Assembly (NCBI GenBank): GCA_019745505.1 | Contig: JAIETE010000025.1 | Span: 1-64,000, forward strand | DNA length: 64,000 bases | Source: Candidatus Obscuribacterales bacterium | GTDB lineage: Bacteria > Cyanobacteriota > Vampirovibrionia > Obscuribacterales > Obscuribacteraceae | Direction: 5' to 3' | Part shown: positions 20,475 to 25,936 of the stretch, piece by piece | Layout: each line of letters begins with the position of its first letter | Numbering within the stretch: position 1 is the first letter of the stretch | The notes under the pieces: model-generated | The model's database searches: none | Seen by the model: only the letters and a program-made list of their open reading frames with translations | What the model was told of the DNA's origin: nothing | Program-made: the position numbers and the translations under genes

Positions 20475-20630
20475 ATGAGTGCACCCGGACATAAAGACCC
20501 TGCCCAAGGGTGGCTGACTTTCTTCTTCGTTTGCTTCGCGATCGTTGTCTTCGGGATTGGCGTGTATGCCCAGGCCACTTATGACGTAAACGCTCCCGAA
20601 GTTCCTGCTGCCGGTGGTGGTGGACACTAA
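20475..20630 (+). CDS. Small single-pass membrane protein, 51 residues
   Basis: Translation from ATG 20475 gives MSAPGHKDPAQGW, a hydrophobic helix (LTFFFVCFAIVVFGIGVYA) and a short tail rich in Pro, Ala and Gly ending GGGGH. A TAGGAG ribosome binding site ends eight bases upstream and a TATAAT lies further upstream, so this looks like a real gene of its own. The stop TAA is followed by a convergent kinase gene 34 bp away. The size and topology recall small accessory subunits of membrane complexes, for example respiratory oxidases, but nothing nearby identifies a partner. Confidence 0.65.
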   Translation: MSAPGHKDPAQGWLTFFFVCFAIVVFGIGVYAQATYDVNAPEVPAAGGGGH

Positions 20631-20663: not shown

Positions 20664-22670
20664 CTAGAACATCACTACTCGTGTGGTTGGAAGGATGTTT
20701 TGTACTTCGCTTTGTTGAGCTGCATCCACCGAGCCCCTTGAAAGCGTTAGAGTTTCGAGCTTTCTGAGATGACCAAGGCTACGGACCGTCTCATTTTCTA
20801 GGTGGCAATTTTGCAGGTCTAGATGTCGAAGATGTTCGGCTTTTGCAAGCGTCTCGATTTGTTTGCTGTCGACTGTGAGATACATCTGGATTGCCAGAGA
20901 TTGAAGATTGGGAATGGACGCTATTCTTTTATAGTCCTGGCTAGTCAGTTCGCAGCTTCGAATACTCAACTTGAGCAATTTGTTCGATTTGATAAGTGCG
21001 TCTAACAGCACGTCGATGTCGGACATCTCGCCTATTTTCAGCACCTCTATTCGTTTGAGCAGTGGTGATTTGCTCAGTTCGCCGGGAGAAAGGGTTGTGC
21101 ACGAAATCCCTAATGAACTTAGTTTTGGAAGCTTTTCCAACTTCTTCAAGTCGGAGCTGTTGAGTCGCACACTTTCAAAGGACAGTTCGTCTAAAAATTG
21201 AAATCGTTTCAAGTCTTCGAGGACAACTTTGAATTTGTCGCTGCAATTATTGAATCGAATTGCCCTTAGCTCATCGTCGCCAAATCTCTGAAACGCAGCT
21301 GGGCATGACTCGAAAATACTGGCTATAGGTTTGAACTTCCAGGGACCTTTCCACAGAATGGTTTGATTTCCTCTGGCCTCGATGGTCTTCGATGATGGAT
21401 CTGTAAGGGTGCCAATCTGAAAACGTGGAAACTCGTAATTTCTGAGTTCTTGTCCATGCTCAATCAGTTTTGACAGGAAGAACGCTTGTTTACTTTTGTC
21501 GACTTCCTCTAGATTCAAATCTTCGTCCGCTGATCCAGTCAAAGGAGAAGTGAAGGAAGGCGAGCTGTCGTATCTATTAAGCTGAATCCGATGCGATAGA
21601 GGCTCCTTTGCCTGCATCAGAAAAAATGCAATCAAGCCCACACCAATTGCGCCAAGCGCACAGATGAGAGCAAGCCTGAAATTCCTGGCAGTTTTTTCCT
21701 TTGGCTTGGGTTTGATTCTCAGCTGCTTGCTCAACTTCACTCTCATCAAATTTTCGGCAATTTGATTTGCTGATGAATAACGCTTTTGCGGGTCTTTAGC
21801 CAGCATCGTCAAGACAATGTGTTCCAGCGCATCAGGAAACTCTCGCCCCAGAGAAGCCTCGCGCAGCGATGGGACTTTTCCTTCTAAATGCAACGTCTTA
21901 GCCTCTTCCAGCGTGCTGCAAGCGAAAGGAGGTCGTGCCGTTATGGCTTCAAAGAGTGAACAACCCATCGAGTAAATGTCGCTGCTCTGATCAGTCTTCT
22001 TGGGTGTGACCTGTTCGGGGCTTATATATTGAGGATTGATGTTTGAGCGAATAAACCCCGCTTGCGGCTTTCGCCCACCCTCACTTAATTTACCCGTTGC
22101 GAAATCGAGCAGCTTGCAACTCCAATTTCCTTGCTCGCCAACCAACAATATATTGCTTGGTTTCACATTGCGATGGATAATGCCTTTCTCGTGAGCGTCT
22201 TGAAGAGCCCAGGCAAGCGGAATGAAAACTCCGAAAATGTCATCGTACGTTAGGCGTCCGCATCGCTGCAAGTAGTCGGCAAGGGTTTTACCCTCGGTTA
22301 ATTCACTAACGCAGTAGGGTTGTTTTCCGTCAATCCCTCCGAAGTCGGTTAGTTTTTCTATATTTGGATGGTCCAGGAGCGAGACTGCTTTTGCGTCGCT
22401 CTCGAAGCGCTGTATTTGACTCTCACTGAATTCCGGCTCGAAAAGCTTGAGTGCGAATTCTCGGTGTTTGTTGATATGCTCGACTTTGTAGACTACGGCA
22501 AGTTCACTTTTCCCCAGCGTCGAAACAACTTTGTATTTGTGGTCTATAAGTGTACCGGGCTCTAAGGCCTGAAGTTCCGGAACTTCAACGGGCTCGTCTG
22601 CGCCTGAATCTTGAAACAGCTTCGGTGTCGTTGAGCTCTTAAGTTTTTTCTGCGGGGCACTATCCGGCAC
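20664..22670 (-). CDS. Membrane-bound Ser/Thr pseudokinase with leucine-rich repeats
   Basis: 668 residues from the GTG at 22670, which has AGGA seven bases upstream; a TTG at 22727 without ribosome binding site would add 19 residues. Order: disordered N-terminus, kinase-like domain (about 40-310), one transmembrane helix (about 335-355), a linker and LRR-like repeats to the end. The fold is clear (ALK lysine, SPEQ, DIYSMGCSLFEA), but catalysis should be lost: HRD is HRN (Asn168, codon at 22167-22169), DFG is DFA, and the glycine loop is GKSELA instead of GKGGMG. It is a diverged tandem copy of the intact kinase immediately upstream (74-bp gap). An allosteric or scaffolding role for that kinase is inferred by analogy with known HRN pseudokinases. 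Confidence 0.85.
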   Translation of the reverse strand: MPDSAPQKKLKSSTTPKLFQDSGADEPVEVPELQALEPGTLIDHKYKVVSTLGKSELAVVYKVEHINKHREFALKLFEPEFSESQIQRFESDAKAVSLLDHPNIEKLTDFGGIDGKQPYCVSELTEGKTLADYLQRCGRLTYDDIFGVFIPLAWALQDAHEKGIIHRNVKPSNILLVGEQGNWSCKLLDFATGKLSEGGRKPQAGFIRSNINPQYISPEQVTPKKTDQSSDIYSMGCSLFEAITARPPFACSTLEEAKTLHLEGKVPSLREASLGREFPDALEHIVLTMLAKDPQKRYSSANQIAENLMRVKLSKQLRIKPKPKEKTARNFRLALICALGAIGVGLIAFFLMQAKEPLSHRIQLNRYDSSPSFTSPLTGSADEDLNLEEVDKSKQAFFLSKLIEHGQELRNYEFPRFQIGTLTDPSSKTIEARGNQTILWKGPWKFKPIASIFESCPAAFQRFGDDELRAIRFNNCSDKFKVVLEDLKRFQFLDELSFESVRLNSSDLKKLEKLPKLSSLGISCTTLSPGELSKSPLLKRIEVLKIGEMSDIDVLLDALIKSNKLLKLSIRSCELTSQDYKRIASIPNLQSLAIQMYLTVDSKQIETLAKAEHLRHLDLQNCHLENETVRSLGHLRKLETLTLSRGSVDAAQQSEVQNILPTTRVVMF

Positions 22671-22744
22671 GGCGAAGTCCTGACGGCAATATGAATCTAT
22701 TGTAGAAGCTTGGCATGCGCCCGCCAAGGTGGCTTAAAGCAAGT

Positions 22745-24805
22745 CTATTTGAAAATTACCTGGCAGTTCGGCACGAGCTCGACAATGCTTTTGCGATCTT
22801 CGGCTGAAAATTTGTGCCCAGTCAGAATCAAGGTTTTTAGATGCTTCATCTTAGCCAGTGCCGGATAGGTCTCCGGTCTCAGAAAACAATGTTGCAAATC
22901 CATCCATTCGAGAGACTTGGATTTGCACAATCCGTTAAACGCATCAGGCCCTAATTCACTTGTATCAATCTCTATCCTTGCCAATTTCGGTAGTTTGGCC
23001 AACTTTGCGAAATCTTGCTCAGTCATGATGCAAAACCTCAGTTTTAAGGTGTCCAGCTCTCCGCCTTGAAGGGCATTAATCAGGTTTGTCATCTTCGGCA
23101 TTTGTCCCAAGCACAATTTGCCGAGTTTTTTCAGTCTCTTATATTTTGCCAATCCGTCCGCGGTAACGTCTGTGGTGATGACCGAAAGTGAGCGCAGATG
23201 GGGCAATGGGTCAAGATAGATGATTCCGGCGTCATTGAAATCCGAGTCGTTGAAGGATAGCTCTTCCAAAAATTTATATGAGCGCAGATGCATTAGCATG
23301 TCATAGTGGCATTCTGTTTCCCTATCAAAGATGATCGAGAGAATCTCGTCGTCTTTGAATTTGTCGAAAAGCCCTGGAAATGCCGATACCACTTCTCTTG
23401 TGGGTTTGAAAACCAGGGGTCCTCGCCAGGGGATCTCTACGTGACCTTTAGCTTCGTATGCGAGATCTAGTTGACGATTTTTCAAAAGACCAACAGATTT
23501 TTGTGGGAAGTCGAAAACTCTTATCTCTCTTCCATTTTCGTTTCTAATTTTTGTGCAAAAAGGTTTTGAGGTCTCGGGTTCGGAACCCGATAGAGGAGAG
23601 CCGTAAAGTCCTTTCTCCGAGATTATCGAAGACCGATCGCCTCTGATTCCATCGGTTGTGCTTGCCAAATCCGGAACGTTGCCTGCGCGTCTTTCGTCTT
23701 GCAAAAGCATCCAGAAATAAAATGCGAAGCCGGTCGCTATGACGGCAATGGTGCCCAATATGTAATTTGTCAGCGTGGGACCTGTGCGATTTTGCTCGAA
23801 TAATTTTTCATCGTGAGAGGAGATCATTAGCTGTTCTCCCTGCTTTAGTCGAATTAAATTCCCGGCGACCTGCCGAGCTGAGGCAAAACGTTGATCCGGT
23901 TTTTTAGCCAACATGGAGTGAACGATACGTTCGAGATCAGCGGGAAACTCTTGACCCATGGTTGCTTCTTTGAGCGTCTGAGGTTCTTTATTGAGGTGCA
24001 TCCCGATGGTTTCTATTGCCGAGGCTCCAGTGAATGGCGGTCCACCGGTGATTGCTTCGAACATTGTGCAACCGAGCGAATAAATATCGCTTCGCCGATC
24101 TACTTTGCCGGCGCTGCATTGCTCCGGGCTCATGTACAGCGGACTTCCTACGATTTCGCCGGTTTGTGTCAGAGCAGTCTTTTCATCAGTTAGTTTGGCA
24201 ATACCGAAGTCCAGCAGTTTCGGCTGCCAATTTCCTTGCTTGCCGACCAGCATGATATTGCTGGGTTTTACATCTCGATGGACAATTCCCATCTCATGCG
24301 CATCATGAAGTCCCATGCACAATGGAATGAATACTGCAAAAATCTCTTCGTAAGAAAGTGGCCCATTCCGTCTTAAATGTTCTTCGAGGCTGATTCCTTC
24401 GACCAGCTCCATCACAAAGTATGGAGTTGAATTGTCGATGAGCCCGAAATCGCTGACCCTGACAATATTTGGATGGTCGAGTTTTGAAGTGGCTTTTGCT
24501 TCCGTTTGAAACCGCCGTGCCTGATGTTCGTTGAAAGTGCCGCCAAAAGTTTTCAGCGCAAATTCTTTCTTGAGAAAAACCTGCTCTACTTTGTAGACGG
24601 CTCCCATGCCTCCCTTGCCGATTAGCGAAATGACCCGATAGGAATCGATGAGAGTGCCTGGCGCGAAAACAGAAGCTTCAGTTTGCTTGGACCCGAAGAG
24701 CGTTATTTCTTCGTGAGTAGGGCTCTTGTCGGCAACCGGTGCATCACCGTGCAGCACCGGTACATCCGAGCTGTCATCATTTTTTTGCTGATTCTGATCG
24801 GCCAC
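22745..24805 (-). CDS. Membrane-bound Ser/Thr protein kinase with leucine-rich repeats
   Basis: 686 residues. Kinase domain about 55-320 with all key motifs: GKGGMG (63-68), ATP-binding Lys85, catalytic HRDVKPSN (176-183), DFG (199-201) and SPEQ. A single transmembrane helix (346-368) places the C-terminal part outside the cytoplasm; this contains a short conserved segment (FKPTREVVSAFPGLFDKFKDDEI) and LRR-like repeats (about 500-686). It should phosphorylate Ser/Thr in response to something sensed by the LRR domain. The GTG start lies six bases after the stop of the alpha/beta hydrolase gene, indicating an operon hydrolase-kinase-pseudokinase. No dedicated phosphatase is in the window. Confidence 0.9.
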   Translation of the reverse strand: MADQNQQKNDDSSDVPVLHGDAPVADKSPTHEEITLFGSKQTEASVFAPGTLIDSYRVISLIGKGGMGAVYKVEQVFLKKEFALKTFGGTFNEHQARRFQTEAKATSKLDHPNIVRVSDFGLIDNSTPYFVMELVEGISLEEHLRRNGPLSYEEIFAVFIPLCMGLHDAHEMGIVHRDVKPSNIMLVGKQGNWQPKLLDFGIAKLTDEKTALTQTGEIVGSPLYMSPEQCSAGKVDRRSDIYSLGCTMFEAITGGPPFTGASAIETIGMHLNKEPQTLKEATMGQEFPADLERIVHSMLAKKPDQRFASARQVAGNLIRLKQGEQLMISSHDEKLFEQNRTGPTLTNYILGTIAVIATGFAFYFWMLLQDERRAGNVPDLASTTDGIRGDRSSIISEKGLYGSPLSGSEPETSKPFCTKIRNENGREIRVFDFPQKSVGLLKNRQLDLAYEAKGHVEIPWRGPLVFKPTREVVSAFPGLFDKFKDDEILSIIFDRETECHYDMLMHLRSYKFLEELSFNDSDFNDAGIIYLDPLPHLRSLSVITTDVTADGLAKYKRLKKLGKLCLGQMPKMTNLINALQGGELDTLKLRFCIMTEQDFAKLAKLPKLARIEIDTSELGPDAFNGLCKSKSLEWMDLQHCFLRPETYPALAKMKHLKTLILTGHKFSAEDRKSIVELVPNCQVIFK

Positions 24806-24811
24806 AGCGTG

Positions 24812-25936
24812 CTATTGAACTACACGTCCGCCGACATCTTCCACGCTCTTCTTCAGTACCGCCACTCGATCTTTTCCGGAGGGGCTGTGATCTTCGATCC
24901 AGTCTCCTAACGCATCAATCGATGTTGCGCGCACGAATGAAGTTTCCAGCTGAAGGTGACCTTGCTTGCCTCTCCAGCAGAGTGTTTGATCGTCAGAGGG
25001 GACATTCATCATGAAATCGGTGACGTGTACAGGTGCTACACAGCCATCCACGCTGCCCTGGATTATCAGAAGAGGCAAGTGTGGTGCGAGCAACCTGCCT
25101 AGCTTGGCTGTTTTGTCGACGAAATCGTCTGTGGCAAGCAAGTCTTTAAGCCCGAGCTCGGTCACCATGAGAGGGTCGCTCAGCAGTTCATCAACAACTT
25201 CTTTTCTTGGGCAAACGAGCTTCGTGAGAAAGCCATGTAACTTGACCTTGTGGTTCTTGGTTACCAGTGACGCAAGTCCGGCGGTAATGTCACTCGGAGA
25301 GAGATACATTTTCGGGTTTACCTTGATGGCTGGAGCCGAGAGGACGAGTCCGTCGACGAGGTCGTTGTGCTCACCGGCGACTTTTACACAAAAGGTACAA
25401 CCCAGGCTCTCTCCAAGCAAGATTAATGGCTTGCCGGGATACTTGGCGCGTGCCGCCTGAACAATTTTGACAATGTCCTCATTGCTCTTGTTGTGCGAAA
25501 CCTTGTGGTGGTCGTCGCCGGGCGGGCTGAACTTGTTTTCCGTGTCGTAGTGGCAGCGCCCAAATCCGCGCATGTCCATGGCGATGAAACCGATGCCGCT
25601 GACAGCCATAGTGCGGGCCAGAACCCTGTAACGGCGACCGTGGAGCGTCAGCCCGTGAATACCAATGATGATTGCTTCCGGGTCTTTTCCTGCAGGCATC
25701 CATTCATAAGTCGGCAATCCCGACGCCTTAGTGAAATCGCCGTCTTCGGAATAAGTAAATTTGGAAAGAATATCTTTGCTGACGGTGTCAGACAACTGGG
25801 AAGGGATTGTGAATTCGGCTGCTTTGGCAGAGCCGGAAAATTGCATTACCGGAGCTGCCAAAAGACTCAAAAGTGCCGCTGTGACGACCTTTGCTCTTGA
25901 TTTTGCACCTTTTATGTTCATCATTAACCCGTCCAT
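24812..25936 (-). CDS. Exported alpha/beta hydrolase (S33/monoacylglycerol-lipase type)
   Basis: 374 residues with a signal peptide (basic start, hydrophobic 17-34, likely cleavage after AKA near residue 39). The alpha/beta-hydrolase core is clear: oxyanion-hole region GIHGLTLHG, nucleophile elbow GESLG with Ser177, Asp in QGSVDGCVAP and His in KQGHLQLET near the C-terminus, the normal catalytic triad. It resembles lysophospholipase/monoacylglycerol lipase proteins, so an ester substrate such as a lipid is likely. It is the first gene of an operon with the kinase and pseudokinase receptors. Two starts are possible (ATG 25936 or the ATGATG pair at 25924/25921). Confidence 0.82.
   Translation of the reverse strand: MDGLMMNIKGAKSRAKVVTAALLSLLAAPVMQFSGSAKAAEFTIPSQLSDTVSKDILSKFTYSEDGDFTKASGLPTYEWMPAGKDPEAIIIGIHGLTLHGRRYRVLARTMAVSGIGFIAMDMRGFGRCHYDTENKFSPPGDDHHKVSHNKSNEDIVKIVQAARAKYPGKPLILLGESLGCTFCVKVAGEHNDLVDGLVLSAPAIKVNPKMYLSPSDITAGLASLVTKNHKVKLHGFLTKLVCPRKEVVDELLSDPLMVTELGLKDLLATDDFVDKTAKLGRLLAPHLPLLIIQGSVDGCVAPVHVTDFMMNVPSDDQTLCWRGKQGHLQLETSFVRATSIDALGDWIEDHSPSGKDRVAVLKKSVEDVGGRVVQ

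Follow-up and report, generated by a model that had tools for sequence, protein, structure and literature searches.

A leucine-rich repeat receptor pseudokinase retained beside a hydrolase gene while its active twin is repeatedly lost

Does a pseudokinase encoded beside an active kinase exist to regulate that kinase? The question is raised by a locus of a Candidatus Obscuribacterales bacterium (GenBank assembly GCA_019745505.1), within positions 1 to 64,000 of contig JAIETE010000025.1; this stretch of 64,000 nucleotides is referred to here as the window. Two neighbouring genes encode receptors of the same layout, an active-type kinase (K1) and a kinase-like protein without the catalytic Asp (K2), next to the gene of an exported hydrolase (HYD). 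A sequence-only reading had suggested that K1 and K2 may be a signalling pair in which K2 is selected as the non-catalytic partner. Selection for a non-catalytic K2 was borne out, with the Asp lost in seven of seven orthologues, all kinase frames open, and a ratio of nonsynonymous to synonymous substitution rates (omega) of about 0.05-0.06. The pair as a signalling unit was not, as K1 is missing at four of the seven loci, and the rate of K2 is unchanged where K1 is gone.

Architecture and active sites of K1 and K2

HYD, K1 and K2 follow one another on the minus strand, with a gap of 6 bases between HYD and K1, and of 74 bases from the stop of K1 to GTG 22670, where K2 probably starts. The features of the locus are as follows.

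20664-22727, minus strand: K2 receptor pseudokinase gene; open reading frame (ORF) from TTG 22727, likelier start GTG 22670; tail, kinase-like domain, transmembrane (TM) helix, leucine-rich repeats (LRR)
21714-22553, minus strand: K2 kinase-like domain, residues 59-338
22497-22514, minus strand: K2 Gly-loop GKSELA, degraded
22446-22448, minus strand: K2 beta3 (ATP-site) Lys, K94, kept in seven of seven orthologues
22152-22175, minus strand: K2 catalytic loop HRNVKPSN, with the Asn codon at 22167-22169
22098-22106, minus strand: K2 DFA, with the Gly lost and the Asp kept
21612-21680, minus strand: K2 membrane helix, about residues 350-372 by sequence (347-372 in the model)
20673-21500, minus strand: K2 extracytoplasmic LRR domain, residues 410-685
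22745-24805, minus strand: K1 active-type receptor kinase, with GKGGMG, HRD, DFG and a TQTGE activation loop; one TM helix; LRR ectodomain
23816-24658, minus strand: K1 kinase domain, residues 50-330
24812-25936, minus strand: HYD, exported alpha/beta hydrolase (Pfam Hydrolase_4)

Both kinase reading frames are uninterrupted, and both proteins begin with a tail, followed by a PknB-like kinase domain, one TM helix and, as the C-terminal half, LRR, in agreement with the layout first described. Pfam Pkinase scores of 168.5 bits for K1 and 125.1 bits for K2, against a curated cut-off of 31.7, place both by fold in the PknB-like Ser/Thr receptor kinase superfamily. K2 more likely starts at GTG 22670 than at TTG 22727, because similarity among the K2 proteins begins at VPDxxPQKK, with AGGA just upstream. 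AlphaFold models of K1 and K2, built from 3-sequence alignments, revealed alternating strand/helix repeats in both LRR halves, with predicted local distance difference test (pLDDT) values mostly 80-95. A Foldseek search matched the K2 LRR half to an LRR chain in a structure of an SCF complex (7b5l, 4.3 Å over 218 columns). This was the sole usable match, the kinase matches of K2 superposing poorly, and the kinase half of the K2 model, of low confidence, was excluded from the argument. A scan of the locus for promoters and terminators found sites no more numerous than in shuffled sequences, none of them pointing to a separate promoter or terminator; the gene order would fit co-transcription of HYD, K1 and K2.

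K1 has the catalytic Asp, DFG and activation-loop Thr of an active kinase, its site comprising GKGGMG, Lys, Glu, HRDVKPSN, DFG and the activation segment LTQTGEIVGSPLY. The corresponding elements of K2 are GKSELA, Lys, Asp, HRNVKPSN, DFA and QAGFIRSNINPQY, which leaves it with HRN, DFA and no Thr-x-Thr. The Gly-loop, HRD/HRN and DFG/DFA motifs, the Asn codon and the preserved ATP-site Lys are those reported before. K2 has lost the catalytic Asp, two glycines of the Gly-loop (the second and the third) and the Gly of DFG. Further changes, which the sequence-only reading had missed, are an alphaC Glu that has become Asp and the disappearance of the Thr-x-Thr and P+1 Gly-Ser from the activation segment. 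The claim that three catalytic elements had been lost goes too far, because K2 still has the beta3 Lys, D208 of the DFG motif and, in the catalytic loop, both Lys and Asn.

Conservation of K2 within the genus

Eight genomes of the genus were compared (G000-G007, of which G000 is the window's genome), all of them metagenome-assembled genomes (MAGs) with a completeness of 64-93%. K2 was found in seven (G000 and G002-G007), and in the eighth, G001, which is 77% complete, there is no more than a HYD paralogue beside an active kinase of a different clade. In all seven K2s the catalytic Asp is absent, the beta3 Lys is kept and the activation-loop TQTGE is lost. The absence of the HRD Asp places each among pseudokinases as defined by sequence (at least one of Lys, HRD Asp and DFG Asp missing). 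The catalytic loop reads HRNVKPSN in G000, G004, G005 and G006, HGGVNPGN with DFG in G002, and HCGVMPSN with GFG in G003 and G007, which have lost the Lys of that loop and the DFG Asp along with the catalytic Asp. Conservation of HRN and DFA, a check proposed with the sequence-only reading, thus extends to four of the seven; in the other three the Asp is replaced by Gly, and the DFG site reads GFG, GFG and DFG.

K2 is a duplicate whose orthologues share descent. In a kinase-domain tree the seven K2s form one clade with support of 100/100, outside which fall K1 and an active LRR kinase of another genus (G049, with HRD and DFG), and a short N-terminal motif (P...PQ.K) is common to the K2 proteins. 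Since all seven lack the Asp and form a single clade, it was most simply lost once, before the species split, with the site altered further later.

The kinase-like domain of K2 is under strong purifying selection. One-ratio codon models (iqtree) gave an omega of 0.053 for three species and 0.062 for seven, compared with 0.035 for K1 and 0.039 for HYD; these values are rough, since synonymous sites are near saturation among G000, G004 and G006, and are nonetheless far from 1. Pairwise substitution counts, made on saturated synonymous sites, agree. The domain is 79-82% identical among G000, G004 and G006, and 92 of its 280 positions are invariant across the seven K2s. Eight invariant residues are specific to K2, with Y152, C156, T160 and D162 in one stretch, and A264, R265, R295 and Q314 deeper in the C-lobe. 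Change is faster in K2 than in K1 (79% against 92% identity between the kinase domains of G000 and G006), and the K2 ectodomain is its least conserved part (for G000 and G004, 56% identity, compared with 81% in the kinase domain).

Two K2s have lost the receptor half. A deletion of about 1 kb removed the TM helix and LRR in G006, leaving the last two dozen codons out of frame. The G002 K2 has a frameshift right after the kinase domain and no LRR, and lies on a long branch of the kinase tree (0.54). In both, the kinase-like domain is still open. Orthologues with HRD, or decayed at random, had been named as what would speak against a selected pseudokinase; HRD occurs in none of the seven, and decay is seen in these two lost halves and the one fast branch.

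G000 has 109 Pkinase matches. The HRD Asp is present in 99 of about 104 alignable kinase domains, K2 being the sole HRN and four others having different letters. The degenerate pattern HRN[VIM]KPxN occurred in four of 52 related genomes, once each and solely at the K2 locus, and the reversed control pattern had zero matches in the 52. Because HRD is so prevalent in G000 and HRN is limited to this locus, chance occurrence of the K2 motif is excluded. A K2 query against the genome contig collection matched the G004 record alone (a Candidatus Melainabacteria MAG). Four kinase-like stretches of G000 without the HRD Asp, at C21:3405-5294 (L055), C15:11230-12549 (L119), C15:27876-28955 (L120) and C164:9510-11354 (L128), carry HNE, IRC, HGS and HAA, which differ from the K2 motif.

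Loss of K1 and the role of K2

Three genomes (G000, G006 and G007) have K1, and four (G002, G003, G004 and G005) lack it. In the latter, HYD and K2 lie about 25-170 bases apart on the same contig, and an assembly gap as the cause of the missing K1 was rejected on that ground. K2 adjoins HYD, or HYD-K1, in G000 and G002-G006, and in G007 HYD and K1/K2 stand at the ends of two contigs; the HYD orthologues of G002-G007 are 80-92% identical. What is conserved is K2 with the hydrolase locus, and not the kinase/pseudokinase pair. On the hydrolase tree, ((G005,G002),(G003,G007),(G000,(G004,G006))), in which some forks have moderate support (83-92), K1 was lost at least three times. Any reading of the tree requires at least two losses, because G004 and G003 each group with K1 holders. 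As MAGs are incomplete, there is a small chance that K1 has moved elsewhere in the genomes that lack it at the locus. Recombination of the tandem copies into a chimera, deleting K1, was rejected, the single-copy genes being K2-like in both the N-terminal tail and the kinase domain; ectodomain trees were poorly resolved and little informative on this point.

The end branches of K2 in the kinase tree are 0.093, 0.095 and 0.084 where K1 is gone (G004, G005 and G003), and 0.14, 0.11 and 0.096 where it is present (G000, G006 and G007). Because K1 is gone from four of seven loci and the rate of K2 is not raised there, K1 is unlikely to be an obligate partner of K2.

We favour, with about an even chance of its being right, the reading that K2 is a genus-specific receptor pseudokinase that acts without catalysis in the cytosol, as a decoy, scaffold or dimer partner of some paralogous kinases, with K1 not obligate. 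K2 arose when an active PknB-like LRR receptor kinase of the K1 lineage was duplicated in tandem. Before the split of the seven species it would have shed its catalytic Asp and the phospho-sites of its activation loop, and it would have been retained since as a non-catalytic receptor. Its kinase-like domain would act as a cytosolic binding module that pairs with paralogous kinases or competes for a docking site, tuning their output in one direction or the other, as decoy or allosteric partner. Given the number of Pkinase matches in G000, candidate partners would be many, and K1 would be an optional one in the three species that have it. A wider claim, in which K2 is independent of its catalytic twin and acts as a general non-catalytic hub or decoy, similar to HER3 and JH2, of a large bacterial receptor-kinase family, and is the first with an LRR ectodomain, is possible but rather doubtful.

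In HER3, Asn replaces the catalytic Asp and the alphaC Glu is altered, with Lys, Asn and DFG Asp retained, and the affinity for ATP is about 1 uM; HER3 and JAK2 JH2 bind ATP with one metal ion, and weak phosphotransfer has been reported (PMC4718504). K2 is likewise a membrane receptor with an Asp-to-Asn change, an altered alphaC Glu, a kept beta3 Lys, loop Asn and DFG Asp, and an active paralogue. It differs from HER3 (ERBB3) in being a PknB-like bacterial protein with an N-terminal kinase domain and an LRR ectodomain, and in the frequent loss of its active twin, so the relation is a resemblance in working and not one of membership. The HER3 residue pattern (Asp to Asn; Lys, Asn and DFG Asp kept) is seen in G000, G004, G005 and G006, and not in G002, G003 and G007. 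With a pattern so near that of HER3 and JAK2 JH2, the K2s of the HRN species probably bind ATP in a similar manner, which would stabilise the fold.

Several observations weigh against the favoured reading. Constraint on K2 may be weakening in places, because the G002 gene is frameshifted and on a long branch, and the G006 gene carries its deletion. Nucleotide binding is not general among the K2s, because the Gly-loop has degenerated and, in G003 and G007, neither the DFG Asp nor the Lys of the catalytic loop is present. The position of PknB Leu33, which we take to be a residue of the back-to-back dimer interface, is Leu in K1 and Lys in the HRN-type K2s, and this Lys would speak against a PknB back-to-back dimer specifically. 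Several PknB structures carry Asp or Glu in place of Leu33 (PMC8541300).

The main rival, which we regard as unlikely, ties K2 to the hydrolase, as a sensor or regulator linked to its product or export, with the kinase fold as a scaffold for another cytosolic protein. HYD is the constant neighbour of the kinase genes in six genomes (contig ends in the seventh, G007), and other hydrolases lie beside active-type receptor kinases at L038 (G001 C470), L042 (G001 C771) and L045 (G007 C209). However, the K2 ectodomain is the fastest-changing part of the protein and missing in two genomes, yet the hydrolase is 80-92% identical; moreover, a G006 hydrolase paralogue has no adjoining kinase, and neighbourhood by itself argues weakly for a role. 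The dedicated pair, with K2 as allosteric partner of the adjacent K1 in the style of HER3 with EGFR or HER2, and both in one signalling unit with the hydrolase, is quite unlikely. Although K1 and K2 are adjacent on the same strand, of sister origin and of the same architecture, occur together in G000, G006 and G007, and K2 has the HER3-like active-site pattern, at least three losses of K1 left K2 in place at all seven loci with an unchanged rate, the G006 K2 sits beside K1 without TM helix or LRR, and the Lys at the Leu33 dimer position does not fit.

That K2 is a duplicate under weakening constraint, slowly turning into a pseudogene, is very unlikely. It would account for the faster change of K2 relative to K1, the loss of TM helix and LRR in G006 and G002 with the frameshift in G002, and the further catalytic losses in G003 and G007, but seven kinase-like domains have stayed open through saturated synonymous divergence at a low omega, and a set of conserved residues specific to K2 stands among their 92 invariant positions. 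An ATP-dependent activity that is weak or altered, either phosphotransfer as for HER3 and JAK2 JH2 or another transfer as for SelO and SidJ, is highly improbable: the Lys, DFG Asp and catalytic-loop Asn of the HRN species, and precedents in PMC4718504 and PMC12599244, would allow it, but in G003 and G007 the Lys of the catalytic loop and the DFG Asp are missing as well as the catalytic Asp, and no K2 has an unaltered P+1 region. A role in anti-phage defence was rejected, the strong PADLOC matches being unspecific hits on the generic kinase domains of models such as PD-T4-6.

Relation to known kinases and meaning of the locus

By sequence, the nearest solved kinase domains are mycobacterial PknB and staphylococcal PknB (Stk1), which likewise combine a cytosolic kinase, a single TM helix and an extracytoplasmic sensor. 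Here LRR replace PASTA domains, and K2 lacks the catalytic Asp and activation-loop Thr. Scores of the two proteins against the PknB_PASTA_kin model were 198.1 and 287.4 bits, below the cut-off of 450, which leaves both outside the PASTA kinase subfamily.

The review PMC12599244 describes bacterial kinase-fold proteins that, like K2, miss catalytic residues and have unknown functions (ActPs1-3, GLW, CP1, DYD and DLHK). By its descriptions, CP1 has no TM helix and a linked COG3899 domain, whereas K2 has a TM helix, LRR and no further domain; DYD has its beta3 Lys changed to Arg and a DYD motif, whereas K2 keeps the Lys and has DFA; DLHK keeps the HRD Asp and has no TM helix, whereas K2 has lost the Asp and has the helix; and ActPs1-3 and GLW diverge in all three motifs, whereas the window's K2 keeps the Lys and DFG Asp. 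None of the seven families, as described in the sections consulted, has lost the HRD Asp while keeping the beta3 Lys and DFG Asp in a protein with a TM helix and LRR outside the membrane, and the word LRR does not occur in that review. EssB/YukC of type VII secretion resembles K2 as a membrane-anchored bacterial pseudokinase, and has a scaffold role (PMC12599244); it differs in having all three motifs degraded, in belonging to a secretion system and in lacking LRR.

Kinase-TM-LRR receptors form a large family in G000-G007 (for instance on G000 C32, G003 C56, G004 C383, G006 C6 and G007 C479), with 23-51 matches to K1 per genome at E <= 1e-60, and many of their genes lie in tandem runs. Adjacent pairs of kinase-domain genes were found in G000 on C1, C3, C26, C34, C53, C77, C78 and C269; in many of them the loop reads HRDxT and the residue aligned with the beta3 Lys is a different one, and the pairs constitute a separate family. 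The neighbourhoods L038, L042 and L045 suggest that the hydrolase/receptor-kinase arrangement recurs in the genus. Between K2 and an MFS gene, on the strand opposite K2, lies a small ORF (MSAPGHKDPAQGWLTFFFVCFAIVVFGIGVYAQATYDVNAPEVPAAGGGGH, window 20475-20630, plus strand) with one hydrophobic stretch and no Pfam match, whose DNA is recognisable at the equivalent place in G002 and G006.

Because up to 67% of some bacterial kinomes are pseudokinases (PMC12599244), a bacterial pseudokinase is not in itself new. A search of the open-access literature, which is of incomplete coverage, found no paper on LRR receptor pseudokinases in this lineage. Unusual features of K2 are its form as an LRR receptor, an active site like that of HER3, and an active twin that has been lost repeatedly. 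Little is known of what bacterial pseudokinases do, and natural experiments as clear as the K1/K2 locus are few. With the active K1 repeatedly lost while K2 stays under purifying selection, a non-catalytic role becomes testable in isolation, and this history tells against the default view that a pseudokinase beside a kinase exists to regulate that kinase.

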